Shown here: in pieces, positions 672 to 25,160 of the stretch | Layout of the letters: every line of letters starts with the position of its first letter | Numbering within the stretch: position 1 is the stretch's first letter | The notes under the pieces: generated by a model | Seen by the model: the letters and a program-made list of their open reading frames with translations, nothing else | What the model was told of the DNA's origin: nothing | Database searches by the model: none | Assembly: GCA_019247755.1 (NCBI GenBank) | Contig: JAFBAM010000104.1 | Span: 1-34,514 of the forward strand | Reading direction: 5' to 3' | Source of the DNA: Sphingomonas sp. | GTDB lineage: Bacteria > Pseudomonadota > Alphaproteobacteria > Sphingomonadales > Sphingomonadaceae | Length of the DNA stretch: 34,514 nt | Made by a program: the position numbers and the translations under genes

Positions 672-1832
672 TCAGTTTACCCGTGCCCGAAATCGAATTG
701 TGAAACTGCTGTTGGCGGCCATCGTCCCGCTGGGGATCAGCTTCAGCGCCTTGACGTTCGGATCATAGCCGGCGCTTGGCGTGTAGGTATAAGTCGCGCC
801 GCCATTGTCCGAATAGCTTCGCCCCGAAGCCGGAAGCGTGACCGTGCTCGACCCGGCCGTCAGCTCGAAGGGGCCCATGCCCGGCGAGCCGGGGTTGAAG
901 TCCCCATTGTAGAACGTGACGTTCGCCGGGAGCACATCGGCGAGGACGAGGCTGTTCAGGTCGACCTTGCTCCCGCCGCTGTTGGTGACCGTCAGCGTAT
1001 AGGCGACGTCCGCGCCAGGGACCGCGAACCGGGTCACGCCCGTCGTGTCGTAGGGAGCCGAGGTCTTGGTAACAGTCACGCTTGGCAGCGGGCAGAAGCT
1101 TAGCTTGACGACGCCCAGCGCCTGCTGGCCCGTCAGCGCTTCGCCGGCGCTAAGCGGGTAATTGCCGTAGCGGAGCGAGACGCTGGTCACCGGTTCGTTG
1201 AACAAAATGTCCATGTCGCCGGTGGTCGCGCCGGTGTTGGCGGTGCCGGTCCCAATAGCCTCGTTCGCCGCGAGCGAGGGCGATCCGCCGGGGCCTATCC
1301 GGGCTGACGTCGGGCTTTGCAGGGTGAGGACGGGATCCGCATAAGTGCTGGTCCCATCCGACCCCGTGATCCACAGCCAATCGCGATACTGGTTATTGGT
1401 ATAATCGATATCGTTGACCGAGAGCGTGAGCTCGCGGATCGGCGTTGCGAACGTGAACGTAGTGACGATCACCCGGGTAGCGCCCGTAATCGACGCGGTC
1501 CTTCCGCCGAACACCCCGCCAATGTTGAGCACCCGGCCCCCGGTCGAGGTTGACAGCGGAGTGCTGTCGATCCGCGGCAACGTGTCGCCGTTGACGCTCG
1601 TGCTGGTGAGGCCGTTCTGCGTGATGTTGACGCTGAACGTCCGCGTCGCGGCCGCACCGTTGGTGGCCGTGTAGTTGGTCGTCCCACCATAGCTGAGCTG
1701 GGTCGTCGGAGCGCTGCTGAACGCATAGCTGTAAAGGTTCGTATTGTCGCAGCTGGTCGCCGCCTGCGCTGTGCTGGTCGGGCCCGCCACGACGAGCGCC
1801 GCCACCGCGCTAGGAAGGAGAGCGCGCCTCAC
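672..1832 (-). CDS. Secreted DUF11-type repeat protein (386 aa)
   Basis: Signal peptide (MRRALLPSAVAALVVAGPTSTAQA); DUF11-like C-terminal region VTVTKTSAPYDTTGV..VPGADVAYTLTVTNSGGSKVDLNSLVLADVLPANVTF; 4-nt overlap with the upstream gene. Confidence 0.85.
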   Translation of the reverse strand: MRRALLPSAVAALVVAGPTSTAQAATSCDNTNLYSYAFSSAPTTQLSYGGTTNYTATNGAAATRTFSVNITQNGLTSTSVNGDTLPRIDSTPLSTSTGGRVLNIGGVFGGRTASITGATRVIVTTFTFATPIRELTLSVNDIDYTNNQYRDWLWITGSDGTSTYADPVLTLQSPTSARIGPGGSPSLAANEAIGTGTANTGATTGDMDILFNEPVTSVSLRYGNYPLSAGEALTGQQALGVVKLSFCPLPSVTVTKTSAPYDTTGVTRFAVPGADVAYTLTVTNSGGSKVDLNSLVLADVLPANVTFYNGDFNPGSPGMGPFELTAGSSTVTLPASGRSYSDNGGATYTYTPSAGYDPNVKALKLIPSGTMAANSSFTIRFRARVN

Positions 1833-4800
1833 CGTCGCCTCCCGAGCCCGAGGCTTTCGAGCGAGAGCTCATCGAACTTGAAGCGGAGGTCGGCGTAAAG
1901 ACCCGAGCGGGTGTAGCGGTCCGCGGCGAAATCGCGGTCGCGATAACCAACGACATTATAGCCGAGGAGGAGCCAGGTGTCGGCTGTCGGGCGGAACCCG
2001 ACCTGGGGACCAAAGGAATAAGCGAGCGAGCGGGCGCCGATGCCATGCCGGACGCTGACCTCCGCGCCGAGTTCGGCCTTTTCCCCGATCGACACCCTGA
2101 GGTCAGCCGATACCAAATTGCTGAAGCCCTCGATATCGTCTTGGCCAAACCGGTCGGACACGTAGCGGGCACCCCAGAACAAGGACATTTCATAGCGGTT
2201 GTCGGAGCTCGAATAATTGATTGCGAGCGCATTGATCAAACGCGCGGAGCGGGCGTCGCCGGTGACCGTCAGGGGATTGCCGAGGGGGTCGGTCGAGCCG
2301 GGCGTGGCGCCGGTGACCGAATCGCGGCGGAGCTCGAGCTTGTCGAGCCAGGAGAGGGGCCGGTTGGCGGGACGATTGGCCCAGCTGAGGCTCGCGTTGG
2401 CGACGGAAGTGATGGCGCCGTCGCGGCCCTTCGCGCGAAACCAGTCCAGGGCACCGCCAAGAGCCCGTCCTTCGCCGATCTGGCGGAGCGCGCCGAAGAG
2501 GAGGCCGGTGCGGTCCTCGCGGTCGCCGTGCCGATATTCGCCGCGTCCGGTGAGGCTGAGCCGGCCCGAACGATAGGTGGCTCCCGCCGTCACAGCGGTG
2601 AAGTCCTCGGTGATGAGCGATCCGTCACCGACAAAGCCACCGCTTGCAACGGGCTGAAGCGGGTTGATCACCGTGCCCGGGTTAATCCCGCCGATCGTCC
2701 GGTTGCTGTCGAGCGACAGGTCGACCGACCAGCGTTTGGAAAGGATCAGGCTTTGCGCGAGGCCGAACGCGGCAAAGGTCCGTCGGCCATATTCTGGAAT
2801 GTCCTGAGCGTTGCCGCTGAGCGCGATCTTGGCGCCGGCCCACGGCGCAAGGTCGAATCCGAGGCGGGCGGTGCGGGCATCAAGGGACCCGCCCTTGGCG
2901 ATCTCGTAGCTGGCGACGAGCGATGCCCAGCGAGTCGCTTCGAAGCGCGCGGTCAACCGGTGGCGCGCCGGGAAATCGACGCTGCCGTCTCGGCCAAGCG
3001 GTATGTCGCTTTCAGCGCCGAACTCGAGCTTACCGCGGGCGAACCTCTTGCTTCCGCCGACGGTCAGCAACGTGCTTTGATTGCTCGACCCGTCGGCAAG
3101 CTCGTCGTGGGCGAAGGTCAGGCCGGCCCGCGCCATTACGTCGGAACGGCGATATTCGGCGAGGAGCTGGCCGGCGTCGCGCCGAGCGCCATCTTCCAGC
3201 ATCACGTGGTGCCAGGCGCTGGCGACCAGCGCCAGGCGGTCGTTGAGGTGCCAGCGGGCATCAAGCCCAATCTTGCGGGTGCCGTTCTCAGCGCCGCTCA
3301 GCTGGTCCGTCCCAAAGCCTGCCTCGCGCTCACTGGCATAGGCCAGCGCGTCAAAATGGCCGTCATGATGCTCGAGCTCGACCAGCCAAGCATGCGCATT
3401 GTGCTTAGCCGCGGTGGCGCCGCTCGAATGGCTGATAGCGGCCTCGGCACGAAGCTCGGTCGACGGCGTAACCCTGATCTTGACGTCGGCGCCGGCAACG
3501 TCGGTCTTGACGCTGCCGTCATTGTCATGGATCGCGGTCGCGCCCAACTGGACCCTTTTGTGTTGGCTTTGCCAGCTCAGCCGGGCGCCGGCGTCGAGCA
3601 CCGTTCTTCCGAACGTGACCACGTCATATTCGACAATGATGAACTGTGGGTCGAGGCCAGACGACCGGCTCAGCACTGGAGAGCGGAAGGTCAGCGTTCC
3701 TCTCTCATAATCGATGTCATAATCGACGTAGCGGGCGAGGAGCTTTTCATCGAGGATCTTTTCAGAACGGAGCCGGTCGCGCGTCTGCAGCGTGACCCGT
3801 TCGGAATTGGCAAGCAGGCCGCGGCTGCGGAGCGGATAGGGACCGCTCAGGCCATTGCCCTGGATCTCGTCGCGCTGGTGCGCGAGGGGTGTCTTCGATG
3901 CGAATGCGAGCGCCGCCACCTGCGGCGACCGATATTCTGCCTTGGCGCCGTTCAGCGAGCGGATGTAGCGGGTTAGCACTGGCTCATCGATCGCGGTGTT
4001 GTAATCACCGAACAACGCATAGAATTGCGGGCGCTCGAGGCGGATGTAGAGCTTGCGGATCGAGGCCGCGTCGTAGCGGCGCTCCGAGCGGTCAGCGTAA
4101 ACCGTATAATATTGCTGCGGGTCGATCACGCCGCCGAACCGCTCGTCGCGCTTGTGCTTGTCGCTGTCGTAGGAGAGCGTCATCAGCCAGCGGCCGAGCA
4201 CCCGGCCCTTGGCATAGAGGGCGAGGCGTCCGTCGACGAGGTCCTTCGGCGTATCAGCGCCAATCTGCTCGAGATGCTTGTCGAGCCGGCTGAATCCGAC
4301 GCTGCCTTCGGCGAGGCCAACGACCGTCCACGGCCGCTCGCCCGGCGAGAGCCATGCCTCGAGCCGCTCTTCCCGGACGCTCGCGCCGTCGTGGAAGGAA
4401 AAGCGCAGCGAGACGCTGCCCGAGGCGGTGGTCGGTTCGAGCTCGACCAGAGCGATCCCGTCGTCACCGGCGACGTGCCAGGCTGGGCGGGCGCGCTCGA
4501 GCCCGGCCAGCTGCCGCGCCTGCTGAGCGTCGGCCTCCATCGCGGGATAATAAGGATCGGGCAGTTCGAACTCGCCGGAAACGCCGTGATGGACCGGGCG
4601 GCCGCCGCGATCCGTGATCCGAAAGGCGAGCACCGGCCGGTGAATGCCGTCCGCGAGCAGCAGTGAGCGATCCCGCACAAGTTCGGCGTTGGCCGGCATG
4701 TTGGCGAAGGCCACGGTGCGGCGGAGGGTTTTGACGAGGCTTCCCGATGGGTCGCGCACATCGACCCTGAGCTCGGTCGAGCGTCCGGTGAGCGGGATCC

Positions 4801-6859
4801 CGCGCCAGGTGCTGACCGCGACGGTGCCGTCCGCGCTTTTGCGGGTTCCGTCGAACGCGATCGGGTCGGCGGGCTTGCCGTCCACCAGCAATGTCAATCG
4901 CTGCCCCGGCAAATGCTTGACCACGACCCGGGTAACCGGCGAGCGCGGGTTGGCATCCATCGCCGGAAACAAGAAGTCGACACCCGCCGACTGGCCGACA
5001 AGCCAGTCCCGATCGCCGCCGGCGGCAGCTGAGTCCGAATCGGACGTGGGCGGCACCGGCGCACTGACCGCGGCCGGCGTTTCCGGGATCGGAGCGGCGG
5101 TTGATCCGGGCGCCGGGGCTAGACGGAAATCGACGCGTTTCAGCTCGCCGCCAAGGCCGGTCACGAAGCGTGAATTGCCTTGACCGCCGCTCCGGACGTC
5201 GCGCTCGCAATCGATTGCCACCGCGCCGGCCGGAATCGTCGCCCGGTCGATCTGGACGACGTGGGTGCCGGTCTTGACGCCGTCAAAATGATAGCGTCCG
5301 TCAAGGTCCGTCACGGCATAGCTGCCGTCTTCGAGCATAACCCGGATTCCGGGAACGCCGCGTCCCTCGCCGGCCGGACCGCAGCCGCCGCCGATCACTC
5401 GTCCCTCGACGGTCAGGCGCTCGGCGATCTCATCGTCGCGGATCCGGACGAGAGCGTCGGCGATATTGCTGTCGAGGCCGTCGGCGCGCGCCTGGGCCTT
5501 GTTAAGCGCATCGCCGGCGGCCGCATTGGGGCGGACTTCGAGAACATAGCTCAAGATCTCCTGCGCGCCCGCGCCAAGCGGCGGGAGCGTGAAGATCAGG
5601 GCGCGGTCGGGTCCGCCGGCCGGATCCGCAAGGCGGTTTCCGTCGACCTTCGCGCTCGAAACGCGGTAGCGCAACTGGATCGGGAGATTGTCGGTGACGA
5701 GGACCGGTCCAGTCGGGCCGACGCCCGGGTTGCGGACCACGACCTGGTAGGCAAGGAGGTCGCCGCGTTGCGCGTCGGCGCGATTGACGGTCTTCGCGAT
5801 CACCAGCGGGGTCGCGGGCCGGTCGAGGGGGACGTCGGTCCTGACGGACCCCGCCGTCGTCACCGTGAAGCTCTGGCCAAACGAGCCCACCGAGATCGTG
5901 AACGGCTGGCCGTCCGGCCGCCGCAGCCCGCTCAGCTGGGCCGGCGTGGCGACGGACGGGAAGCCGTACGGCGCGACTGGCTGAACCGCCAGCCGATAAG
6001 TGCCGGGAGCTACCAACGGGAACCGGTAATCGCCCGGCGGGAAGGAATAAGTGGTTCCGCCACTGTCGGTCACCGCCTGGCCGGTGATCACGGTCGAGGG
6101 ATAAGTGGAAACGCCGTCGTCCCCGAAGACCGCTGCCGGCTGGCCGGTCGCCGCATTCATAAGGGTGACCTGCACTCCCGCGACCGGCGATCCGCTCCTG
6201 CTGTCGAAGGCGATCCCGAACGGGTCGACGAGGATCGCGAGCGAGGCCGTCGCCATCGGCGATCCGCCCTGCGGGTCCATGATCGTGATCGTAACTGCCG
6301 ATCCGCCGGCGACGCTCAGCCGGCAGTCGCCGGGCGCGGGCGCCGGGGGCAGCGCCTGGGTCCCGACGACGGCAAGGAAGGTCCCGCTATTGGGCCCGCT
6401 CTCGGTGAACGTTATCGTCTCGCTGTCCCCGTTGCTGGTGCGGACAAGGACGGTGATGGTGTCGATCGCCGCCGGGTCGTGGTTCGCGGCCGGGCTGGCC
6501 AGCGACAGGACCACCGGCCGGCCGACGTAAACCGAGGGAGCCGGAGTGAGCCCGACGCCCGCTAGCGGGGATGGCAGGCCCGTTCCAGCGGCAGCGCCGT
6601 TGGCGGCGCAGCTCGCCTGCGCGGCGCCGGCGGGAAGGGTCCCGGCGGTCGGAACATAGGTCGAGAGAACGTCGCCCGACTGGAAATCGAGATCGACCCG
6701 GTTGGACGCGACCTGGCCAGTCCCGCTTCCGGCGCTCCACTGAAGGAAGGCGGTGTTAGAGATGGTGCGCGTGGCCGCCGCCGGCTGCGGAGCAGCAAGC
6801 ACGGCGACGGCCACGAACGCGCGCGTGAGCGTTCGCCAGATTTGGCTAGGTCTGCCCAT
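1829..6859 (-). CDS. 1676-aa surface protein: N-terminal Ig/SpaA/DUF11-like domains, C-terminal probable outer-membrane beta-barrel
   Basis: Signal peptide; DUF11 segment (PLVIAKTVNRADAQRGDLLAYQVVVRNPGVGPTGPVLVTDNLP); SdrD-B/CarboxypepD_reg-like segment (GRGVPGIRVMLEDGSYAVTDLDGRYHFDGVKTGTHVV); from about residue 850 to the end, alternating amphipathic strands and a near-terminal YADLRFKF resembling a beta-signal. Confidence 0.85.
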   Translation of the reverse strand: MGRPSQIWRTLTRAFVAVAVLAAPQPAAATRTISNTAFLQWSAGSGTGQVASNRVDLDFQSGDVLSTYVPTAGTLPAGAAQASCAANGAAAGTGLPSPLAGVGLTPAPSVYVGRPVVLSLASPAANHDPAAIDTITVLVRTSNGDSETITFTESGPNSGTFLAVVGTQALPPAPAPGDCRLSVAGGSAVTITIMDPQGGSPMATASLAILVDPFGIAFDSRSGSPVAGVQVTLMNAATGQPAAVFGDDGVSTYPSTVITGQAVTDSGGTTYSFPPGDYRFPLVAPGTYRLAVQPVAPYGFPSVATPAQLSGLRRPDGQPFTISVGSFGQSFTVTTAGSVRTDVPLDRPATPLVIAKTVNRADAQRGDLLAYQVVVRNPGVGPTGPVLVTDNLPIQLRYRVSSAKVDGNRLADPAGGPDRALIFTLPPLGAGAQEILSYVLEVRPNAAAGDALNKAQARADGLDSNIADALVRIRDDEIAERLTVEGRVIGGGCGPAGEGRGVPGIRVMLEDGSYAVTDLDGRYHFDGVKTGTHVVQIDRATIPAGAVAIDCERDVRSGGQGNSRFVTGLGGELKRVDFRLAPAPGSTAAPIPETPAAVSAPVPPTSDSDSAAAGGDRDWLVGQSAGVDFLFPAMDANPRSPVTRVVVKHLPGQRLTLLVDGKPADPIAFDGTRKSADGTVAVSTWRGIPLTGRSTELRVDVRDPSGSLVKTLRRTVAFANMPANAELVRDRSLLLADGIHRPVLAFRITDRGGRPVHHGVSGEFELPDPYYPAMEADAQQARQLAGLERARPAWHVAGDDGIALVELEPTTASGSVSLRFSFHDGASVREERLEAWLSPGERPWTVVGLAEGSVGFSRLDKHLEQIGADTPKDLVDGRLALYAKGRVLGRWLMTLSYDSDKHKRDERFGGVIDPQQYYTVYADRSERRYDAASIRKLYIRLERPQFYALFGDYNTAIDEPVLTRYIRSLNGAKAEYRSPQVAALAFASKTPLAHQRDEIQGNGLSGPYPLRSRGLLANSERVTLQTRDRLRSEKILDEKLLARYVDYDIDYERGTLTFRSPVLSRSSGLDPQFIIVEYDVVTFGRTVLDAGARLSWQSQHKRVQLGATAIHDNDGSVKTDVAGADVKIRVTPSTELRAEAAISHSSGATAAKHNAHAWLVELEHHDGHFDALAYASEREAGFGTDQLSGAENGTRKIGLDARWHLNDRLALVASAWHHVMLEDGARRDAGQLLAEYRRSDVMARAGLTFAHDELADGSSNQSTLLTVGGSKRFARGKLEFGAESDIPLGRDGSVDFPARHRLTARFEATRWASLVASYEIAKGGSLDARTARLGFDLAPWAGAKIALSGNAQDIPEYGRRTFAAFGLAQSLILSKRWSVDLSLDSNRTIGGINPGTVINPLQPVASGGFVGDGSLITEDFTAVTAGATYRSGRLSLTGRGEYRHGDREDRTGLLFGALRQIGEGRALGGALDWFRAKGRDGAITSVANASLSWANRPANRPLSWLDKLELRRDSVTGATPGSTDPLGNPLTVTGDARSARLINALAINYSSSDNRYEMSLFWGARYVSDRFGQDDIEGFSNLVSADLRVSIGEKAELGAEVSVRHGIGARSLAYSFGPQVGFRPTADTWLLLGYNVVGYRDRDFAADRYTRSGLYADLRFKFDELSLESLGLGRRR

Positions 6860-6898
6860 CGCGGTCGCGCGCGCTCATCGCGCGCGCTCGTCCAACGG

Positions 6899-7969
6899 TC
6901 AGTTGATCGTCACTCGGAACACGACGGTCCGCGTGTCCGCTGCAAGCAGCGAAGCGATCGTGCCCGTGACGGTGGTGCCGGCAAAGCTTCCGCCGGCGAC
7001 GCCGTCGGCATTGCAGGTGGCGCCCGTGACCGTGCCGTTGACCTTGATCCCGAAGGTGGAATCGTAGGTCGTCTGCGCCGGCAACGGATCGGTAACCACG
7101 ACGTTGGTCGCGGTCGCGCTTCCCGAGCCGTTGGCAACGGCGATGCAATATTCGACCGTTGCTCCCGGGATCATCTTGGGATTGGTGGTCCCGTTGATCG
7201 GGTCGCTGACGACACGGCTGGTCTTGGTCGCCGCGACGTTCGCGCCGAGGACCGTATAATCATCCTCGGCAAAGCCGATCCCGTCGTTGGCCGTATTGCC
7301 GTTGGCGTTGGTGTCGGCGAACACCGTGTCCATGGCCGCCGTGTTGGCGCCCGCGGTCTGGGTCAGCACCGCCCCCTGGCTGCCAGCAGTGCTTCCGTCG
7401 GCGGCGGTCGCGGTCAGTCGAACGCCGGCGACATCGCCGGTCGAGCGGCCGAGCGGGACGTCGGCGACTACGAACACCGTGACTACCGCGTCGGCGGCGA
7501 CCTGGTCGAGATAGGTCACCTGCTGGTCGGTGCCGGCGTCATAAACGCCGTTGCTGTTGGTATCGACGTACATCTTAATGTTGCTGACGTCGAAATTGTC
7601 GGTTCCGCCATGCGCCGCCGTTCCGCCGCTGCGATTCGTCGCGGCAAGAGCGAAGTCGAGGGTCGCGTTGGAGGAGTTGGTGACGGAGAAGGTGGTCACG
7701 GCGGCCGATTGGCCCGGCGAGACCGACGTCGTCGCATTGCCGACCTCGGCGACCGTCAGATTGACCTTGCGGTCGACGACCAGGCTGTTGCTGGCGCTTA
7801 TCTGGTTCTGGCTGACACCGCCGACCTTGAAGTCGACCGTCACATTGTTGACGATGTTCGAGCCCGCGGTTGTCCCGGCGGCATTGGCCGGGGTCGCGGT
7901 CCCGAAGATGAGTGCGGCGAGGCTGACGCCGGCCGCGATCCTGTTCCTGATCATTGTTCGAGTCCCCAC
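6899..7969 (-). CDS. Secreted DUF11-type protein (356 aa) with D-x-N-x-N-G loops
   Basis: Signal peptide; MIPGATVEYCIAVANGSGSATATNVVVTDPLPAQTTY; loop VDTNSNGVYDAGTD. Confidence 0.85.
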   Translation of the reverse strand: MGTRTMIRNRIAAGVSLAALIFGTATPANAAGTTAGSNIVNNVTVDFKVGGVSQNQISASNSLVVDRKVNLTVAEVGNATTSVSPGQSAAVTTFSVTNSSNATLDFALAATNRSGGTAAHGGTDNFDVSNIKMYVDTNSNGVYDAGTDQQVTYLDQVAADAVVTVFVVADVPLGRSTGDVAGVRLTATAADGSTAGSQGAVLTQTAGANTAAMDTVFADTNANGNTANDGIGFAEDDYTVLGANVAATKTSRVVSDPINGTTNPKMIPGATVEYCIAVANGSGSATATNVVVTDPLPAQTTYDSTFGIKVNGTVTGATCNADGVAGGSFAGTTVTGTIASLLAADTRTVVFRVTIN

Positions 7970-8025
7970 TCAATGACGCCTGATGAAAAATGCCCGCCGG
8001 CGCCCGTGGCGGGACTGTCTTCAAA

Positions 8026-8487
8026 TCATTTGACGATGGCTTCGAAGCGCAATTCCCCGCGTTCTCCGGCGGCAACGGCGCGCGCGAAAGTCCAGCGGAC
8101 GTGAGTTACGTCCGAAGGTCTCGCAGCGCGCCTCTTCCCGTCCGCGTCGACAACCTTGAGGGTATCCAGGGGTCCGAACGACTTGCCGGAATCGACCGAG
8201 ACTTCAGCACCCTTGCTTTCCTCGCCCGCGAAGATGACCCCAGACGGAACCGGGTCGGAGACGACGAAATGATCGGCCGGTTTGCCCGAATTGTTCGAAT
8301 AATCGAGGGTGAATAGGAGGCGGTCACCCGGCGTCACCAGCTTGGGTTCCTCGAGTGACCGGACCGGCGTTCCCGACCGGCCGGCCTTGATCCGGACGAC
8401 CGAGACGTGGCTGGTTAAACTGACCTGCGGCTCAGCGGCGGCCGGAACGGCGGTCACGGCGAGCAGCAGAAAGGCTAGCATTTTCAT
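8026..8487 (-). CDS. Small secreted DUF11-type protein (153 aa)
   Basis: Signal peptide MKMLAFLLLAVTAVPAAA; VTPGDRLLFTLDYSNNSGKPADHFVVSDPVPSGVIF; same strand and spacing as neighbours. Confidence 0.8.
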   Translation of the reverse strand: MKMLAFLLLAVTAVPAAAEPQVSLTSHVSVVRIKAGRSGTPVRSLEEPKLVTPGDRLLFTLDYSNNSGKPADHFVVSDPVPSGVIFAGEESKGAEVSVDSGKSFGPLDTLKVVDADGKRRAARPSDVTHVRWTFARAVAAGERGELRFEAIVK

Positions 8488-8490
8488 TGC

Positions 8491-9501
8491 TCAGTTCACT
8501 TTCACTTTGAAGGTCACGGTACGGCTGGCGCCGGCAGCGACATTGCCGAGGCGAACGACGACATTGCCGCCGACGACCTCTCCCTGGTCGCCGTCCGCGG
8601 CGTCGGTTAGCGAGGTCCCGCCGAGATCGAGGGTGCCGGGTTGGTAAGTCGTTCCGACCGGCGCGGAATCGGTGAGAGTAAGGTTGGCGATGCTTCCCGA
8701 CCCGGTGACGGAGGCGACCAGCGTGTAGGTGATGGTCGAGCCCGGCACGTGCGTCGTACCGCCGAACGGGTCGCTGACGGCCGCGCTCTTGGCCAGCCCG
8801 ACGAGCGCCGCCGAGACCCGGTAGAATCCCTTGTCCTGCGCGCTCGCGCCAGTGGAGCCGACGACGGCGTCGCCGCCGCCCTGGCCCTGGCCCGTGAAGA
8901 CTGTTCCGGCCGTCCCGGTGCCGGTCATCGCGGCGGCGACGAGATCGACTTCGCCGCGCTGGCCGTCGGTTGCCGCCGCCGGGATGGTTGAGAGCAGGAA
9001 AACGGTGACCGACGCGTCGGCGGCGAGCAGCGGATCATTCGCGCCCGCGACATAAACGGTATCGACGCCCGGATCGTAGCTACCGTTACCGTTGGTATCG
9101 AGCACGATTGACGTGGTCGTCGGGTCGAAATCGTCACCCGTGATATTGTCGCGTGCGGTGAGTTTGAACGCCTCCGGCCCATTGCCCGCGTTGGTGACTT
9201 TGAAGACGAGGACCTGCTTGGTTGCGCCCGGCGACACGATCACGTCGCTTGCGCTGAGCGTCGCGACAGAAACGTCGAGGATCTCGTCGACCTTGACCGA
9301 GACACTGTTTGAATCGACACTTCCGCTTCCTCCGTTCGGGAGGTCGTAGGTCGCCTTGGCGATATTGGTGATGAGAGTGCCGGCAGGCGTCTTCGCCGCC
9401 ATGACCGGCGCCAAAGGTGCGACCAGAGCCGCAATCCCAACAATCCAACCGAGCTTTTTCACTATAAGCCATCTTTGATTCAGATGGCCCTTTCTCTCCA
9501 A
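8491..9501 (-). CDS. Secreted DUF11-type protein (336 aa), first gene of the cluster
   Basis: Signal peptide near LGWIVGIAALVAPLAPVMA; VPGSTITYTLVASVTGSGSIANLTLTDSAPVGTTYQPG; Ca-loop-like LDTNGNGSYDPGVD. Confidence 0.85.
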   Translation of the reverse strand: MERKGHLNQRWLIVKKLGWIVGIAALVAPLAPVMAAKTPAGTLITNIAKATYDLPNGGSGSVDSNSVSVKVDEILDVSVATLSASDVIVSPGATKQVLVFKVTNAGNGPEAFKLTARDNITGDDFDPTTTSIVLDTNGNGSYDPGVDTVYVAGANDPLLAADASVTVFLLSTIPAAATDGQRGEVDLVAAAMTGTGTAGTVFTGQGQGGGDAVVGSTGASAQDKGFYRVSAALVGLAKSAAVSDPFGGTTHVPGSTITYTLVASVTGSGSIANLTLTDSAPVGTTYQPGTLDLGGTSLTDAADGDQGEVVGGNVVVRLGNVAAGASRTVTFKVKVN

Positions 9502-10302: not shown

Positions 10303-10815
10303 ATGCCGAGGCTGCTGAAATCATGGGGCGTGGCGGCCCTGGCGTTGGGCCAGTTGGCTTTCCCCGCCAGTGCCGCTCCGCCGTCAGCTGCGTCGGGCGC
10401 AAGCCTCACGCTCGCAAAGCCCGTGTCCATCGTGAAAACGGCAGATCTCGATTTTGGATCTCTCACGGTAACAAGCGGAGGAACAGCAGTCGTTGACCCA
10501 AACACGAGCCAGCTTTCGGTGACTGGCGGCGTGGTCAGGATTGGAGGATCGGCGCAGCCGGCCCGATTCGAAGTCTCGGCGTCTCGCCTGGCGCTCATCG
10601 TCATCAGGGTGCCTGATACTCCCATAACACTGACACGGATCGGCGGCACCGAACAGATGACTGTCTCGAACTGGACCCTGAATCGGTTCTTCTTGACCCT
10701 GATCGATCAAGCCACGCCCATTCAGTTTGCTGTGGGGGGAACACTCAATGTCGCTGCAAACCAGGTCGAGGGAACGTACCAGGGCACCTTTCCTGTCACC
10801 GTCGACTATTTTTGA
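10303..10815 (+). CDS. DUF4402 domain-containing secreted protein
   Basis: Signal peptide; KPVSIVKTADLDFGSLTV...GTLNVAANQVEGTYQGTFPVTVDYF, the typical DUF4402 start and end motifs. Confidence 0.85.
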   Translation: MPRLLKSWGVAALALGQLAFPASAAPPSAASGASLTLAKPVSIVKTADLDFGSLTVTSGGTAVVDPNTSQLSVTGGVVRIGGSAQPARFEVSASRLALIVIRVPDTPITLTRIGGTEQMTVSNWTLNRFFLTLIDQATPIQFAVGGTLNVAANQVEGTYQGTFPVTVDYF

Positions 10816-11192: not shown

Positions 11193-11693
11193 TCATTGAT
11201 AGTCGGCCGTAACGGTCCAGGTGCCAGTATAAATTCCATCGGGGGTGGTCGAGGCAACGCTCACGGACGCGCCAAGGGAGACGTCCAGCGGCCCCGCGGT
11301 GAGGGTCACCGTTTGTGAAGTCGAGCTCGGCGTGACTGCTAGGGTGGAAGGCCCGGTGAGATTGAATCCCGGTGATGTTAGGGTCACGTTGGCATTGGCT
11401 GTTCCGACCAACCGGAATTTGGCCGACTTGGGGGACCCGCTGCAGGTTATCTTTCCCGTGCCAGAGCCGCACGTGACGGCCCCAGCCGTGCTCACCGTGA
11501 CGGTCTCGCCCGTGAAAGCTCCGGCGCCTAATATAACCGTCCCGAAGTCCAGATCCTGAATCTTGGTGATCGTCAGAGGCTTGTATATGCGGGCGGTTCC
11601 GGTCGCCTGCGCCGTTGGTGACACCGCGAGAGCCGGGCTGGCGACCAGGACGAAGGACGCGAATGCCGCTGTACGCCAAGCCCTGCCCAACAT
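11193..11693 (-). CDS. DUF4402 domain-containing secreted protein
   Basis: ARIYKPLTITKIQDLDFGTVILGAGAF...VASTTPDGIYTGTWTVTADYQ. Confidence 0.88.
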   Translation of the reverse strand: MLGRAWRTAAFASFVLVASPALAVSPTAQATGTARIYKPLTITKIQDLDFGTVILGAGAFTGETVTVSTAGAVTCGSGTGKITCSGSPKSAKFRLVGTANANVTLTSPGFNLTGPSTLAVTPSSTSQTVTLTAGPLDVSLGASVSVASTTPDGIYTGTWTVTADYQ

Positions 11694-18913: not shown

Positions 18914-19058
18914 AAAGCGGTGGATCGATCGGCTGATCGTTCTCGGCCCCATGAACCTGCCGGCCAGCCGCGGCTTTTAGGGTTAGCCAATCCTAAAAAT
19001 CGCCTTCAGAGGCGGTTCAGGAGGCTAAGCCATATTCTCATTGCGCAAGGAGATAGGG

Positions 19059-20516
19059 ATGCTTGCCACCACGATTGCGCTCAACCGCTTCGGTCTCGGC
19101 GCGCGCCCGAGCGACCAGGCACCCGGCGATCCAAAGCGTTGGCTGCTGCAGCAATTCGATCGCTTCGAGCCCCGGCCGCAAGCGCTCGCCCAAGTGCCGA
19201 CCCGCGCCGCCGTCGCCACTGAGCTAGCCGATTATATCCAGGCGCAGCGCCAGTTCGCGCAGGGCAAGCGCCAGCAGCTTGAGCCGCAAGGCGCGGCGAT
19301 AACCCCGGCAGCCATGCCGCAACGCGCCAACGCCCAGCAGGATGACCCGCTCAAGCGCTATCTGCGGCAGAACATTCGCCAGAATTATCTGTTGATGAGC
19401 TCGGCGCGGCTCGACTCGGCGCTCGCAAGCGACACTCCGTTCGTCGAGCGACTGGTGCACTTCTGGGCCAATCATTTCGCGGTCTCGGTCGACAAGTTGC
19501 CGGTGATTGGACTTGCCGGCTTGCTGGAATTCGAAGCGATCCGGCCGCACGTGCTCGGCCGTTTTTCGGACATGCTTCTGGCGGTTGAGCAGCACCCGGC
19601 CATGCTGGTCTACCTCGACCAAGCGCAGTCGATCGGCCCCAATTCGCGCGCGGGCCAATTTGCGGCGATGCGCGGCGGAAAGGCTCGGGGCCTCAACGAG
19701 AATCTCGCGCGCGAGATCATGGAGCTGCACACGCTCGGCGTTCGCACCGGCTACAGCCAGGCCGACGTCACCGAATTTGCGCGAGCCTTGACCGGCTGGA
19801 CGGTCGGCGGAATTGGGCGCGGCCCGGGCGCGCGCATGCTCGGCAACGTGCCCGCGGGCGACTTCCAGTTCGCGGATTTCCTGCACGAGCCCGGTGACCG
19901 CGTCATCATGGGCAAGCGCTATGGCCAGGGCGGAGAGGCACAGGCGCGCGCCGTGCTGATGGACCTGGCATCGAGCCCGGCGACCGCGAAGCATCTCGCG
20001 ACCAAGCTTGCTCGCCACTTCGCAGGAGACGAGCCGTCGCCCGCGCTCGTCGACCGGCTGGAGAGAGCGTATGTCGCCAGCAACGGCGACTTGCCCGCCG
20101 TCTATCGTGCGCTGATCGAATCGCCCGAGCCCTGGGCAACGCAGCCGCTAAAGTTCAAAACACCGTGGGAATGGTCGGTCTCGGCGCTGCGCGCAATCAA
20201 CGCCGCCCGCATCCCGGCACAAGCCCAGGCGGGCCTTTTGAAGCAGCTCGGCCAGCCGACCTGGCAGCCCGGGTCGCCCGCCGGCTGGGACGACATTGCC
20301 GCCAGCTGGGCCGCGCCCGAAGCTCTGGTACTTCGGGTCGAGGCCGCGCAGCGCCTTGCCGATAGCGCCGGATCGAGCGTTGACGCCCGCGCGCTGGCTG
20401 AGAAGCTTTATCCTGGCTCGCTCAGTGACACGACGCGCACCGCAATCGCACGAGCTGAAAGCCCCGCCGAGGGATTGGCCTTGCTGTTCGTCAGCCCCGA
20501 ATTCGTGAGGAGATAA
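19059..20516 (+). CDS. DUF1800 domain-containing protein
   Basis: ALNRFGLGARPSDQAPGDPKRWLLQQFD...PFVERLVHFWANHFAVSVDK...LNENLAREIMELHTLGVRTGYSQADVTEFARALTGW; RBS AAGGAGAT. Confidence 0.92.
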   Translation: MLATTIALNRFGLGARPSDQAPGDPKRWLLQQFDRFEPRPQALAQVPTRAAVATELADYIQAQRQFAQGKRQQLEPQGAAITPAAMPQRANAQQDDPLKRYLRQNIRQNYLLMSSARLDSALASDTPFVERLVHFWANHFAVSVDKLPVIGLAGLLEFEAIRPHVLGRFSDMLLAVEQHPAMLVYLDQAQSIGPNSRAGQFAAMRGGKARGLNENLAREIMELHTLGVRTGYSQADVTEFARALTGWTVGGIGRGPGARMLGNVPAGDFQFADFLHEPGDRVIMGKRYGQGGEAQARAVLMDLASSPATAKHLATKLARHFAGDEPSPALVDRLERAYVASNGDLPAVYRALIESPEPWATQPLKFKTPWEWSVSALRAINAARIPAQAQAGLLKQLGQPTWQPGSPAGWDDIAASWAAPEALVLRVEAAQRLADSAGSSVDARALAEKLYPGSLSDTTRTAIARAESPAEGLALLFVSPEFVRR

Positions 20517-20518
20517 GG

Positions 20519-21673
20519 ATGATTTCCCGCCGCTCCTTCATTAGCGCAACGGGTGCCGCAGCCGGACTTGCCACCCTCGGATTGCCGAAGATGGTCTTAG
20601 CCCGAGCCGCCACCGACCGGCGCTTCGTCTTCATCATCCAGCGGGGCGCTGCCGACGGACTGCACATCGTCGCGCCGACGGGGGATCCGGCCTATGCGGG
20701 CTTGCGCGGGGATTTCGCACAGGATCTGGCGAGCGGCGCCAAGCTCGGGACATTCTTCACGCTTCACCCAGCGCTGGCCGAAACCGCGAAACTCTACTCG
20801 GATAAGCAGGCGTTGTTCGTCCACGCGGTTGCGTCGCCATACCGGGACCGCAGCCACTTCGACGGCCAGAACGTGCTCGAGACCGGTGGCTCGGCCGCCT
20901 ATCGCCTGCGCGACGGTTGGATGAACCGGCTGCTCGGCCTGCTTCCAGCCGACGAGGCCAAAGCGCTTGCGCTGTCGACGACGGTGCCGATGGCGCTTCG
21001 CGGGAGCCACGAGGTCTCATCCTACGCCCAGTCGCAACTGCCGAGCCCCAGCGATGACCTGCTGACGCGGGTGTCGGCGCTCTACGCCGCTGACCAGCAG
21101 CTCCACGGCCTGTGGAGCGCCGCGATGGACACGCGGATGATGGCCGGCGATCCCATGAAAGGCGGCGGGCAGAATGGTGCCGCTGTCGGCTCGCTCGCGG
21201 CGAAGATGCTGGGCCCCGACGGGGCGCGGATCGCAATGATCGAAACCACCGGTTGGGACACGCACTCCGGCCAGCGGGGGCGGCTCACTGCGCAGCTCAG
21301 GAGCCTCGACCAACTGGTGGCGGCACTCAAGGCAGGCCTCGGCCCGGACTGGGCGAATACGCTGGTGGTCGTCGCGACCGAGTTCGGGCGTACCGCGAAG
21401 CCCAACGGCACCGGCGGTACTGATCACGGGCAGGCTTCGGCCGCTATGCTGCTGGGCGGCGCGGTGCGCGGCGGAATGGTGATGGCAGATTGGCCCGGTC
21501 TGGCGACAGCGTCGCTTTACGAAGGGCGAGACCTCAAGCCGACGGCCGATCTCGACGCACTGCTCGCCGGGGCGCTGGCGCAACATTACGGGCTTGAGCC
21601 GGCGCGGGCGATGGCGACATTGTTTCCCGACAGCCGAGGTAGCGCACTGCGCCAGCCATTGATCAGCACTTGA
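20519..21673 (+). CDS. DUF1501 domain-containing protein, probable Tat substrate
   Basis: SRRSFISATGAAAGLATLGLP Tat-like signal; GWDTHSGQRGRLTAQLRSLDQLVAALKAGLG...VVVATEFGRTAKPNGTGGTDHG. Confidence 0.92.
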   Translation: MISRRSFISATGAAAGLATLGLPKMVLARAATDRRFVFIIQRGAADGLHIVAPTGDPAYAGLRGDFAQDLASGAKLGTFFTLHPALAETAKLYSDKQALFVHAVASPYRDRSHFDGQNVLETGGSAAYRLRDGWMNRLLGLLPADEAKALALSTTVPMALRGSHEVSSYAQSQLPSPSDDLLTRVSALYAADQQLHGLWSAAMDTRMMAGDPMKGGGQNGAAVGSLAAKMLGPDGARIAMIETTGWDTHSGQRGRLTAQLRSLDQLVAALKAGLGPDWANTLVVVATEFGRTAKPNGTGGTDHGQASAAMLLGGAVRGGMVMADWPGLATASLYEGRDLKPTADLDALLAGALAQHYGLEPARAMATLFPDSRGSALRQPLIST

Positions 21674-23152: not shown

Positions 23153-23601
23153 CGTCGCTCGAGCAGCAACTAGCGGAGCTGCCCGGAATGTCACCGGCGC
23201 AGCTCCGCGCCAAATGGCGCGATTGCTGGCGCAAGCCTGCGCCCGACATCGGCCCCGACCTGCTTCGCCGCGGGATTGCGTGGAAACTCCAGTCTCGCGT
23301 TTACGGCGAGTTGCCAAGGCACATCGAGCGTGAGCTCGAGAGGGCAGCGCAGCGACTCCGTCGAGGCGATGAGCTGATCAGCACAAGCCCGTCCTCGCTC
23401 AAGACGGGGACGAGGCTCGTTCGAGAATGGCAGGGCAGGGTGCACCACGTGCTCGTGCTGGATGAGGGCTATGAGTATGACGCAAGGTGCTTCAGCTCAC
23501 TGACGCAGGTTGCCACGGCTATCACCGGCACGCACTGGTCAGGCCCGACCTTCTTCGGACTGAGGAAACACAAGTCCGTCAGCCGTAGGGCGCAGACGTG
23601 A
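23149..23601 (+). CDS. DUF2924 domain-containing protein
   Basis: SPAQLRAKWRDCWRKPAPDIGPDLLRRGIAWKLQSRVYGEL...GTRLVREWQGRVHHVLVLDEGYEYDARCFSSLTQVATAITGTHWSGPTFFGL; 4-nt overlaps on both sides. Confidence 0.9.
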   Translation: MTSLEQQLAELPGMSPAQLRAKWRDCWRKPAPDIGPDLLRRGIAWKLQSRVYGELPRHIERELERAAQRLRRGDELISTSPSSLKTGTRLVREWQGRVHHVLVLDEGYEYDARCFSSLTQVATAITGTHWSGPTFFGLRKHKSVSRRAQT

Positions 23602-25160
23602 AGCGCCGCTGCGCCATCTACACTCGCAAGTCGACGGAAGAGGGCTTGGAGCAGGCGTTCAACAGTCTCGATGCTCAGCGCGAGGCCTGCGCCGCCTACA
23701 TCCTCAGCCACGCCCATGAGGGCTGGGAGCAGGTCAACGAGCATTATGACGATGGAGGCTGGTCTGGCGGAAATATGGCCAGGCCAGCACTCCAGCAGCT
23801 CCTTGCTGATGTTGCTGCCGGCAAGGTCGACGTCATCGTCGTCTACAAGGTTGACCGGCTGACACGCAGTCTCGCTGACTTTGCGCGCATCGTCGAAGAG
23901 CTTGATAAAGCAGGCGCATCGTTCGTGAGCGTCACGCAGGCCTTCAACACGACGACAAGTATGGGGCGGCTCACCCTCAACGTGCTGCTGTCGTTCGCCC
24001 AGTTCGAGCGCGAGGTGACCAGCGAGCGGATCCGGGACAAAGTCGCGGCATCCAAGCGCAAGGGCATGTGGATGGGTGGCGCGGTGCCGCTCGGGTACCG
24101 CCTTCGAGATCGGAAACTGCTCATCGACGAGAGCGAGGCCGCGATCGTCCGGCACATATACAATCGCTACTTGCACCTGAAGTCTGCCACTGCGCTCGCG
24201 AACGAGCTTGCGCGATCAGGCATTCGATCGAAGCTTAGAACTTTCAACGATGGGAGGACCCGAGGGGGTTGTGCTTTCAGCGCGGGGTCGCTCGGCCAGA
24301 TACTCAAGAACCCACTGTTCATCGGCAAGGTTAAACACCGCGGCGAACTCTACGAAGGACAGCACGAGGCGATCATCGATCAAAAAACCTGGGACCAGGT
24401 TCAAACCACCTTTGGCGCGAACAGACGAGCTCGAGTGCTTGGGGACCGAGCGCGGTCGCCCAGCCTTCTCGCCGGTATGGTCTTCGACCCTGATGGTCGG
24501 CGGATGACTCCCGTGTTCACGAACAAGGGATCGCGTCAGCATCGGTATTATGTCACCCGGCTAAAACCCGGGGAGGGGAAGGCTGAGGCATGGCGGGTTC
24601 CCGCTGCCGATATCGAGGCGGCGGTCTTGGATCAGGCCGAGCAAGCGATGGCGCGTGGCCTGGAAGCCAATGTTACCGAAGAGGCGACGAGCATTCGTGG
24701 GCTGCCTGTTCCTGAGCAGCGCTCTATTCTTCTCGCACACAGGACGGCGGTTCGGTTGTCTGCTGAAGAACTCGAAATCGCGTTCGGGGCTGAGGACGCA
24801 CAATCCGTCCGGCTGCCGGCCAAGCTCAGGAAGGGTAAGGAGCTTAGGCTCGTGGTGGGGGATGGAGGCTCACAGACTCGCGCACCCGATCGCTCGCTTT
24901 TCCGATTGGTAACCCATGCCCTGGCCGCTCAACGGGCGGTACTTGCTGGTGAAGCGGACCCGTTGGTTTCCGGCTACACCGAGCGTCACCTCTACAAGCT
25001 TCTGCGACTTAGCTGGCTGGCGCCAGACATTCTCGCTGCGATGGTAGAGGGTCGACAGCCGATCGAACTATCCGGACGTCGTATTTTACGCGCAGCTGAC
25101 GTTCCCCTCTGCTGGCGTGAGCAGCGGCGGTTCTTCGGCTTCAGTGAGCAATCAAGCTAG
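23598..25160 (+). CDS. Large serine recombinase
   Basis: YTRKSTEEGLEQAFNSLDAQREAC catalytic motif; VYKVDRLTRSLADFARIVEELDKAGASFVSVTQAFNTTTSMGRLTLNVLLSFAQFEREVTSERIRDK; recombinase domain KNPLFIGKVKHRGELYEGQHEAIID. Confidence 0.95.
   Translation: MKRRCAIYTRKSTEEGLEQAFNSLDAQREACAAYILSHAHEGWEQVNEHYDDGGWSGGNMARPALQQLLADVAAGKVDVIVVYKVDRLTRSLADFARIVEELDKAGASFVSVTQAFNTTTSMGRLTLNVLLSFAQFEREVTSERIRDKVAASKRKGMWMGGAVPLGYRLRDRKLLIDESEAAIVRHIYNRYLHLKSATALANELARSGIRSKLRTFNDGRTRGGCAFSAGSLGQILKNPLFIGKVKHRGELYEGQHEAIIDQKTWDQVQTTFGANRRARVLGDRARSPSLLAGMVFDPDGRRMTPVFTNKGSRQHRYYVTRLKPGEGKAEAWRVPAADIEAAVLDQAEQAMARGLEANVTEEATSIRGLPVPEQRSILLAHRTAVRLSAEELEIAFGAEDAQSVRLPAKLRKGKELRLVVGDGGSQTRAPDRSLFRLVTHALAAQRAVLAGEADPLVSGYTERHLYKLLRLSWLAPDILAAMVEGRQPIELSGRRILRAADVPLCWREQRRFFGFSEQSS

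Follow-up and report, generated by a model that had tools for sequence, protein, structure and literature searches.

A five-gene cluster of Sphingomonas sp. (GenBank assembly GCA_019247755.1, contig JAFBAM010000104.1) raises the question of what four small secreted DUF11-type proteins and one giant protein with Ig-like domains and a barrel-like C-terminal half might build together. The window, i.e. the whole analysed stretch of 34,514 nucleotides, had been the subject of a preliminary description, in which the giant protein was suggested to display, export or scaffold the small ones. Judging from domain boundaries and residue conservation, the cluster probably encodes an uncharacterised outer-membrane-anchored fibre system, whose subunits would be joined by donor strands.

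The five genes, termed A to E in the order of their transcription, all encode secreted proteins and share one direction on the minus strand (ORF list, window positions 672-9501; Table 1). A and B are separated by 3 nt, B and C by 56 nt, and C and D by 39 nt, while D and E share a 4-nt GTGA overlap, which agrees with the co-directional, tightly spaced or overlapping arrangement given in the preliminary description. Judged by eye, each of the five proteins begins with a Sec-type signal peptide, and a lipobox is absent from all of them. The ORF of A extends from a TTG at 9501 (8491-9501, 336 aa), the likelier start being the GTG at 9462 (MKKLGWIVGIAALVAPLAPVMA...; 323 aa); for C, an alternative start at the ATG at 7954 is possible. 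The source genome is a fragmented assembly of 2.2 Mb with 75% completeness, in which D is present once.

Just upstream of the cluster, the window contains two genes for secreted DUF4402 proteins (10303-10815, plus strand; 11193-11693, minus strand). These were considered as members of the system and rejected: a homologue adjoins just one other locus among those checked (L061), and the DUF4402 genes thus probably lie outside the system. Elsewhere in the window, adjacent DUF1800 and DUF1501 genes (19041-20516 and 20519-21673, plus strand) were observed, as well as a large serine recombinase with Resolvase and Recombinase domains (23598-25160, plus strand), which suggests an integrated element in that part of the contig.

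Table 1. Genes and predicted features of the cluster, in window coordinates.
Feature	Position	Strand	Description	Source
Gene A	8491..9462	-	Predicted fibre subunit; donor strand at the N-terminus, GEVED-like central part, DUF11/CLIPPER domain truncated at its C-terminus	
A, donor strand	9352..9390	-	TPAGTLITNIAKA, right behind the signal peptide; Asn46 (ORF numbering) in 43/45	
A, acceptor domain	8668..8790	-	Lys238 (45/45) to Asp278 (45/45); no Asn strand after it	
Gene B	8026..8487	-	153 aa; one truncated DUF11 domain, without donor strand	
Gene C	6899..7969	-	356 aa; paralogue of A and predicted fibre subunit; donor strand and truncated DUF11 domain	
C, donor strand	7832..7873	-	TTAGSNIVNNVTVD; Asn41 in 45/45	
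C, acceptor domain	7088..7225	-	Lys249 (45/45) to Asp294 (44/45)	
Gene D	1829..6859	-	1676 aa; predicted base and outer-membrane barrel protein	
D, N-terminal donor strand	6740..6781	-	AAATRTISNTAFLQ; Asn35 in 48/48	
D, internal DUF11/CLIPPER domain	5450..5812	-	Complete; Lys356, Asp390 and Asn453 each in 48/48	
D, CarboxypepD_reg/SdrD_B-like domain	5240..5374	-		Pfam/NCBIfam
D, Ig-like domains	4325..5029	-	Big_1/Invasin_D3-like in relatives	
D, most conserved segment	3644..4342	-	Precedes the regular strands; common to the separate barrels of split systems	
D, barrel region	1880..3643	-	About 32 predicted antiparallel strands, residues 1073-1660	
Gene E	672..1832	-	386 aa; predicted tip; variable N-terminal domain, C-terminal truncated DUF11 domain, no donor strand	

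The cluster recurs far beyond chance, in dozens of genera of the home family and with a fixed order. Of the 151 genomes sampled in this family, 48 encode D together with A, and A is confined to these 48; seven further matches of D are distant split-type or fragmentary. In addition, 60 full-length D loci were read, which include distant relatives found via alignment and span several families of Pseudomonadota in at least two classes. A/C-type genes lie directly upstream of D in all 60, and the order A-B-C-D is kept in 49 (E precedes A in two, and A is split in one), counts which, like the other conservation counts given here, come from related sequences and hence do not reflect independent events. 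The remaining 11 loci feature one to three A/C-type genes directly upstream of D, usually together with B. The synteny on which the preliminary description had made its proposal depend is therefore conserved. Clustering of all neighbouring ORFs revealed no conserved gene beyond A, B, C and E, so that the lack of a chaperone, usher, sortase or TPS gene, first noted for the single locus, also applies to the conserved unit.

A and C are paralogues. E is optional, being present in somewhat under half of the D loci, usually after D with a 4-bp overlap, and ranges from 163 to about 850 aa with a variable front (P-domain, DUF7933, further complete DUF11 domains) and a DUF11-like end. B also exists outside the cluster: in many genomes, some of which lack the cluster altogether, a related stand-alone DUF11 protein of a single domain is encoded beside housekeeping-type genes (L088-L105). 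Among the named relatives are Sphingomonas gilva, Caulobacter sp., Henriciella sp. and Leucothrix pacifica, and one genome harbours two full copies of the cluster. A near-complete genome of the same genus (G147, compared with G079 and G000) is devoid of it, hence the cluster appears to be readily gained or lost. In one locus (L071, 14146-15119, minus strand) A is split into adjacent ORFs of 178 and 146 aa, the second of which carries DUF11; the subunit may be naturally split here, or the sequence may contain an error.

Searches against Pfam and NCBIfam assigned DUF11 (residues 352-467) and CarboxypepD_reg/SdrD_B (about 496-540) to D, above or near the cut-off, and DUF11 above the cut-off together with a weak GEVED match to C. 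In A, B and E, DUF11 is found at or under the Pfam cut-off, and the NCBIfam B_ant_repeat cut-off is passed by A, C, D and E. The DUF11 domain has been described as the CLIPPER isopeptide domain, which forms an intramolecular bond between Lys715 and Asn806 with Asp748 as the presumed catalyst (PDB 9IFR; PMC12617251). Alignment to 9IFR places the Asn of this triad in the last strands. The complete combination of CLIPPER fold, Lys, Asp and last-strand Asn is present in D, whose internal domain keeps the triad invariant at a spacing of 34/97 vs 33/91 in 9IFR, and for which an intramolecular isopeptide bond is predicted. The terminal domains of A and C retain the Lys and Asp only, as the chain stops before the Asn strand. 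On a DUF11 profile of 105 positions, which was seeded from the DUF11 domain of D and trained on giant adhesins only, these domains end at position 91-92 (A 30/45, C 32/43), one residue before the end of the protein, while the internal domain of D is complete in 47 of 47 cases. The C-terminal endings listed in the preliminary description (FKVKVN, FRVTIN, FRARVN and FEAIVK) do exist, and none is an LPXTG-type signal, just as no sortase gene belongs to the conserved unit. They had been taken for the last strand of the DUF11 fold, a view that is not supported, as they form the strand before the missing one. The terminal N/D residue of A and C was dismissed as bond acceptor, because it maps to position 92 instead of 101 and is unconserved.

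The segment missing from the terminal domains of A and C, with the consensus adatGsvtNtvtv, is matched at the N-terminus of mature C (TTAGSNIVNNVTV), mature A (TPAGTLITNIAKA) and mature D (AAATRTISNTAFL). Their donor Asn is conserved to the extent given in Table 1, two A proteins carrying Ser in its place. When about 340 windows per protein were scored with a 13-residue tail matrix, the mature N-terminus ranked first in 43/45 C, 27/46 A and 20/48 D proteins, and among the top three in 43/46 A and 42/48 D proteins; the N-termini of B and E do not carry the motif. A short HMM derived from the DUF11 tail of D itself proved too weak as a donor test, which is why the giant-adhesin profile with controls was used instead. 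Appending the N-terminal 18 residues of C to the acceptors of A and C raised the score by a median of 7.0-7.6 bits, compared with 0-0.3 bits (95%: 2.7-3.1) for control segments from within the proteins (20 per case), and the donor of C surpassed all 20 controls in 41-42 of 45 cases. Shuffled donors yielded no gain. With a D-derived DUF11 profile the gain was weaker (2.5-5.1 bits, all controls beaten in 8-24 of 45), and with Pfam DUF11 it was small (2-6 bits), one reversed control gaining 1.2 bits. For E as acceptor, the same test was essentially negative. In other families and classes, which were not used for discovery of the pattern, A/C-type proteins also feature the N-terminal motif (TGAGATILNVVTVD, TAAGTVLTNAVTVD, APANTTVTNTATLT) and similarly truncated ends (FQVTVD, YYQVTID, FRVKINE). 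Among the distant D proteins the motif is less clear in some, and several score higher in a window other than the N-terminal one.

AlphaFold2 prediction of residues 613-1676 of D, using seven sequences, yielded Ig-like domains, followed by a poorly modelled, highly conserved segment and by about 32 antiparallel strands in a row, each 8-18 residues long, between residues 1073 and 1660 (pLDDT mostly 50-85; mean pLDDT of the barrel models 58-61, pTM 0.41-0.49). A model of the barrel only reproduced most of these strands, except for the C-terminal 90 residues, and was overall no better. Foldseek matches are dominated by outer-membrane barrels (LptD, SlpA/SDBC, SprA, BtuB and FimD), albeit with low TM-scores and poor global superposition; the large barrels of SprA, LptD and SlpA are among the best structural matches, but a PDB search revealed no sequence relation to D. 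The models thereby support the earlier assignment of the C-terminal half of D to an outer-membrane barrel, a very large one, and single out no specific relative. Moreover, no Pfam or NCBIfam family spans the Ig-plus-barrel half of D from about residue 600 to the end, though the Ig region of some D relatives matches Invasin_D3/Big_1, and a PDB sequence search gave no match to the barrel, only a glycoside-hydrolase Ig stretch and a marginal hit to ErpP. Neither D nor its relatives match the Usher family (Pfam/NCBIfam) or, above the Pfam cut-off, the Autotransporter, POTRA/TpsB and intimin-type barrel domains of type V secretion, a marginal YadA_anchor match (E 0.03) being confined to one D relative. 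TonB_dep_Rec and Plug have no Pfam match in D, in the seven-member barrel alignment or in two split-system barrels. In contrast to type 9 secretion substrates, the subunits of the cluster lack the Por_secre_tail and CHU_C sorting domains, as do all proteins of the window (Pfam/NCBIfam).

In the mechanism proposed here, A and C would be subunits exported via Sec, with a C-terminal DUF11/CLIPPER domain that stops just before its last strands, and A, C and D would each contribute the missing strand at the mature N-terminus. Head-to-tail polymerisation by donor-strand complementation appears likely on this pattern, and at each junction two chains would together restore a full isopeptide site, with Asp and Lys from the acceptor and Asn from the donor. 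With the catalytic Asp and the reactive Lys retained on the acceptor side and the reactive Asn supplied by the donor, the fibre probably cross-links itself covalently without a sortase, though for the Lys-Asn junction between subunits the balance tips only slightly in favour. A donor without acceptor is found in D, both elements in A and C, and an acceptor without donor in E and B; this distribution implies a linear chain E-(A/C)n-D. Such a chain would run from N to C, tip to base, i.e. with the polarity of a giant adhesin that had been cut inside its DUF11 domains. The display or scaffold reading of the preliminary description thus persists with regard to the predicted barrel and the synteny, sharpened to donor-strand joining onto the N-terminal strand of D, and is unsupported where it invoked a last-strand ending.

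Because D possesses a donor while its own internal DUF11 domain is complete, it is assigned to the base of the fibre: its N-terminus would plug the last subunit and its barrel of about 32 strands would hold the fibre in the outer membrane. A function of this barrel as fibre conduit is probable, whereby either the fibre would be threaded through the barrel or the front half of D would itself be exported, and we infer that the fibre is located at the cell surface. E possesses an acceptor (Lys256 and Asp299, each in 17 of 18) and no donor, which makes it a candidate for the tip with a variable, presumably adhesive head; the chances of this assignment are about even. As B has no conserved triad Lys, and Asn instead of Asp in 39 of 45 relatives, its pairing could only be non-covalent. 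It might serve as non-covalent cap, in length control, or as periplasmic chaperone or protector of donor strands, of which a role as cap or chaperone is rather doubtful.

The barrel and the synteny would be explained equally well if D were an export or display barrel, autotransporter-like or two-partner-like, and A, B, C and E independent, non-polymerising cargo or periplasmic partners whose N-terminal strands fold back on their own C-terminal domain. Such auto-complementation has precedents in a report on TasA and in AlphaFold predictions for the subunits of the archaeal thread (PMC9715654), and the occurrence of B as a stand-alone paralogue elsewhere would also fit. Nevertheless, a donor with invariant Asn in D, despite its complete DUF11 domain, makes little sense without chain exchange, nor do the acceptors of E and B without donors, which renders this explanation improbable.

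A donor-strand fibre might also be held together non-covalently, with Lys, Asp and Asn as structural leftovers of DUF11. Some DUF11 domains lack the bond according to the CLIPPER survey (PMC12617251), and B retains the fold without the triad residues; on the other hand, the acceptor Lys and Asp and the donor Asn vary little or not at all between genera, although the proteins as a whole are far less conserved, and the probability of a purely non-covalent fibre is accordingly small. It is very improbable that the proteins instead form a surface layer or a scaffold of the envelope around the barrel, resembling the SlpA/S-layer deinoxanthin complex of Deinococcus: SDBC/SlpA structures do score comparatively well in Foldseek, and part of D is matched by DUF11 proteins of Deinococcus, but the TM-scores amount to just 0.2-0.3, and linear chains are what the donor/acceptor pattern implies.

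The tip-to-base order postulated for the donor-strand fibre recurs in a two-gene version found in many bacteria, where a giant DUF11 protein (about 1,860-3,550 aa) precedes a separate barrel of 1,090-1,490 aa that is related to the C-terminal half of D (Sinorhizobium meliloti, Phyllobacterium, Nitratireductor), the two genes often overlapping by 4 bp. Some of these giants comprise CshA_NR2, GEVED and OmpA besides many DUF11 domains, and their parts are ordered CshA_NR2-GEVED-DUF11-OmpA plus barrel, as in the cluster. A C-terminal aromatic residue, the usual signal of outer-membrane barrels, ends many of the separate barrels (FINLVGKF, FFINLVGRY). The donor motif is mostly absent from them, as expected of barrels that need no donor; one high score occurs at residue 115 of the barrel of locus L079. 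The Acinetobacter adhesin from which the DUF11 domain of 9IFR, renamed CLIPPER, was derived has the same architecture as the split-system giants, and a barrel partner goes unmentioned in the respective paper (PMC12617251). A mixed form was observed on plasmid p4 of Acinetobacter haemolyticus (L167), where small DUF11 genes accompany a D of 2,008 aa and a separate OmpA-family gene lies between D and a DUF11 protein of 979 aa. Split-system barrels are annotated as 'TonB-dependent receptor' or 'hypothetical' (L168, L169, L170; plasmid matches H7-H21 and H40-H58), and downstream genes encode ExbB, ExbD and TonB in Phyllobacterium sp. 628.

Donor-strand fibres are known from chaperone-usher pili, type V pili and TasA. 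As proposed, the cluster would resemble chaperone-usher pili (Fim/Pap) in subunits that, judged from sequence profiles, are short of the final Ig strand and would be completed by the N-terminal strand of the next subunit, in a predicted two-domain, acceptor-only tip adhesin, in a predicted outer-membrane barrel and in the clustering of subunit, barrel and tip genes. It differs in the lack of a PapD-type chaperone gene, B being DUF11-like, and of an Usher match, in a larger barrel that has Ig/DUF11 domains at its N-terminus and itself provides a donor, and in the use of the DUF11 fold with its isopeptide triad. SpyTag/SpyCatcher is an engineered split isopeptide Ig-like domain, in which the detached strand re-forms the bond in trans; the cluster would constitute a natural, polymerising version. 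The archaeal thread formed by Saci_0406 combines N-terminal donor-strand complementation with an intermolecular isopeptide bond and has no known chaperone or usher, but there the bond links Asn57 with the N-terminal amino group of the next subunit but one (n to n+2) (PMC9715654), whereas a bond from Lys to the donor Asn of the neighbour, with a catalytic Asp, is predicted for the cluster. Moreover, the proteins are different and archaea have no outer-membrane barrel. CLIPPER adhesins such as B9T28_05395 of Acinetobacter silvestris (PMC12617251) share the DUF11 stalk with Lys/Asp/Asn triad, the GEVED/CshA_NR2-like parts and the tip-to-base order; they are single giant chains with intramolecular bonds and an OmpA anchor, while the chain of the cluster is cut inside DUF11 into subunits.

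Neither a description of the cluster nor one of a bacterial outer-membrane fibre with split CLIPPER domains and a giant barrel base, independent of chaperone, usher and sortase, was found in the literature searched; a paper on type 11 secretion with many 'DUF11' matches concerns DUF1194. The fibre system therefore stands a fair chance of deserving its own class. More tentatively, with prospects just short of even, it might represent a widespread Gram-negative "split CLIPPER" fibre with self-catalysed Lys-Asn bonds, which would be bonded to the N-terminus of a barrel of about 32 strands and require neither sortase nor PapD-type chaperone. If the proposed mechanism is true, the peptide TTAGSNIVNNVTVDF would covalently label A or C lacking its own N-terminus, and the system would provide a source of natural split-isopeptide pairs. 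It would further comprise a very large single-chain outer-membrane barrel with a natural covalent donor-strand junction, and would hint at the surface route of giant DUF11 adhesins, whose genes adjoin a D-related barrel that now often bears the annotation 'TonB-dependent receptor'. Isopeptide chemistry as in the pili of Gram-positive bacteria would thereby be extended to self-assembling Gram-negative fibres, and about one third of the sampled genomes of the home family, together with relatives among the Alpha- and Gammaproteobacteria, would possess an unrecognised surface-fibre system.
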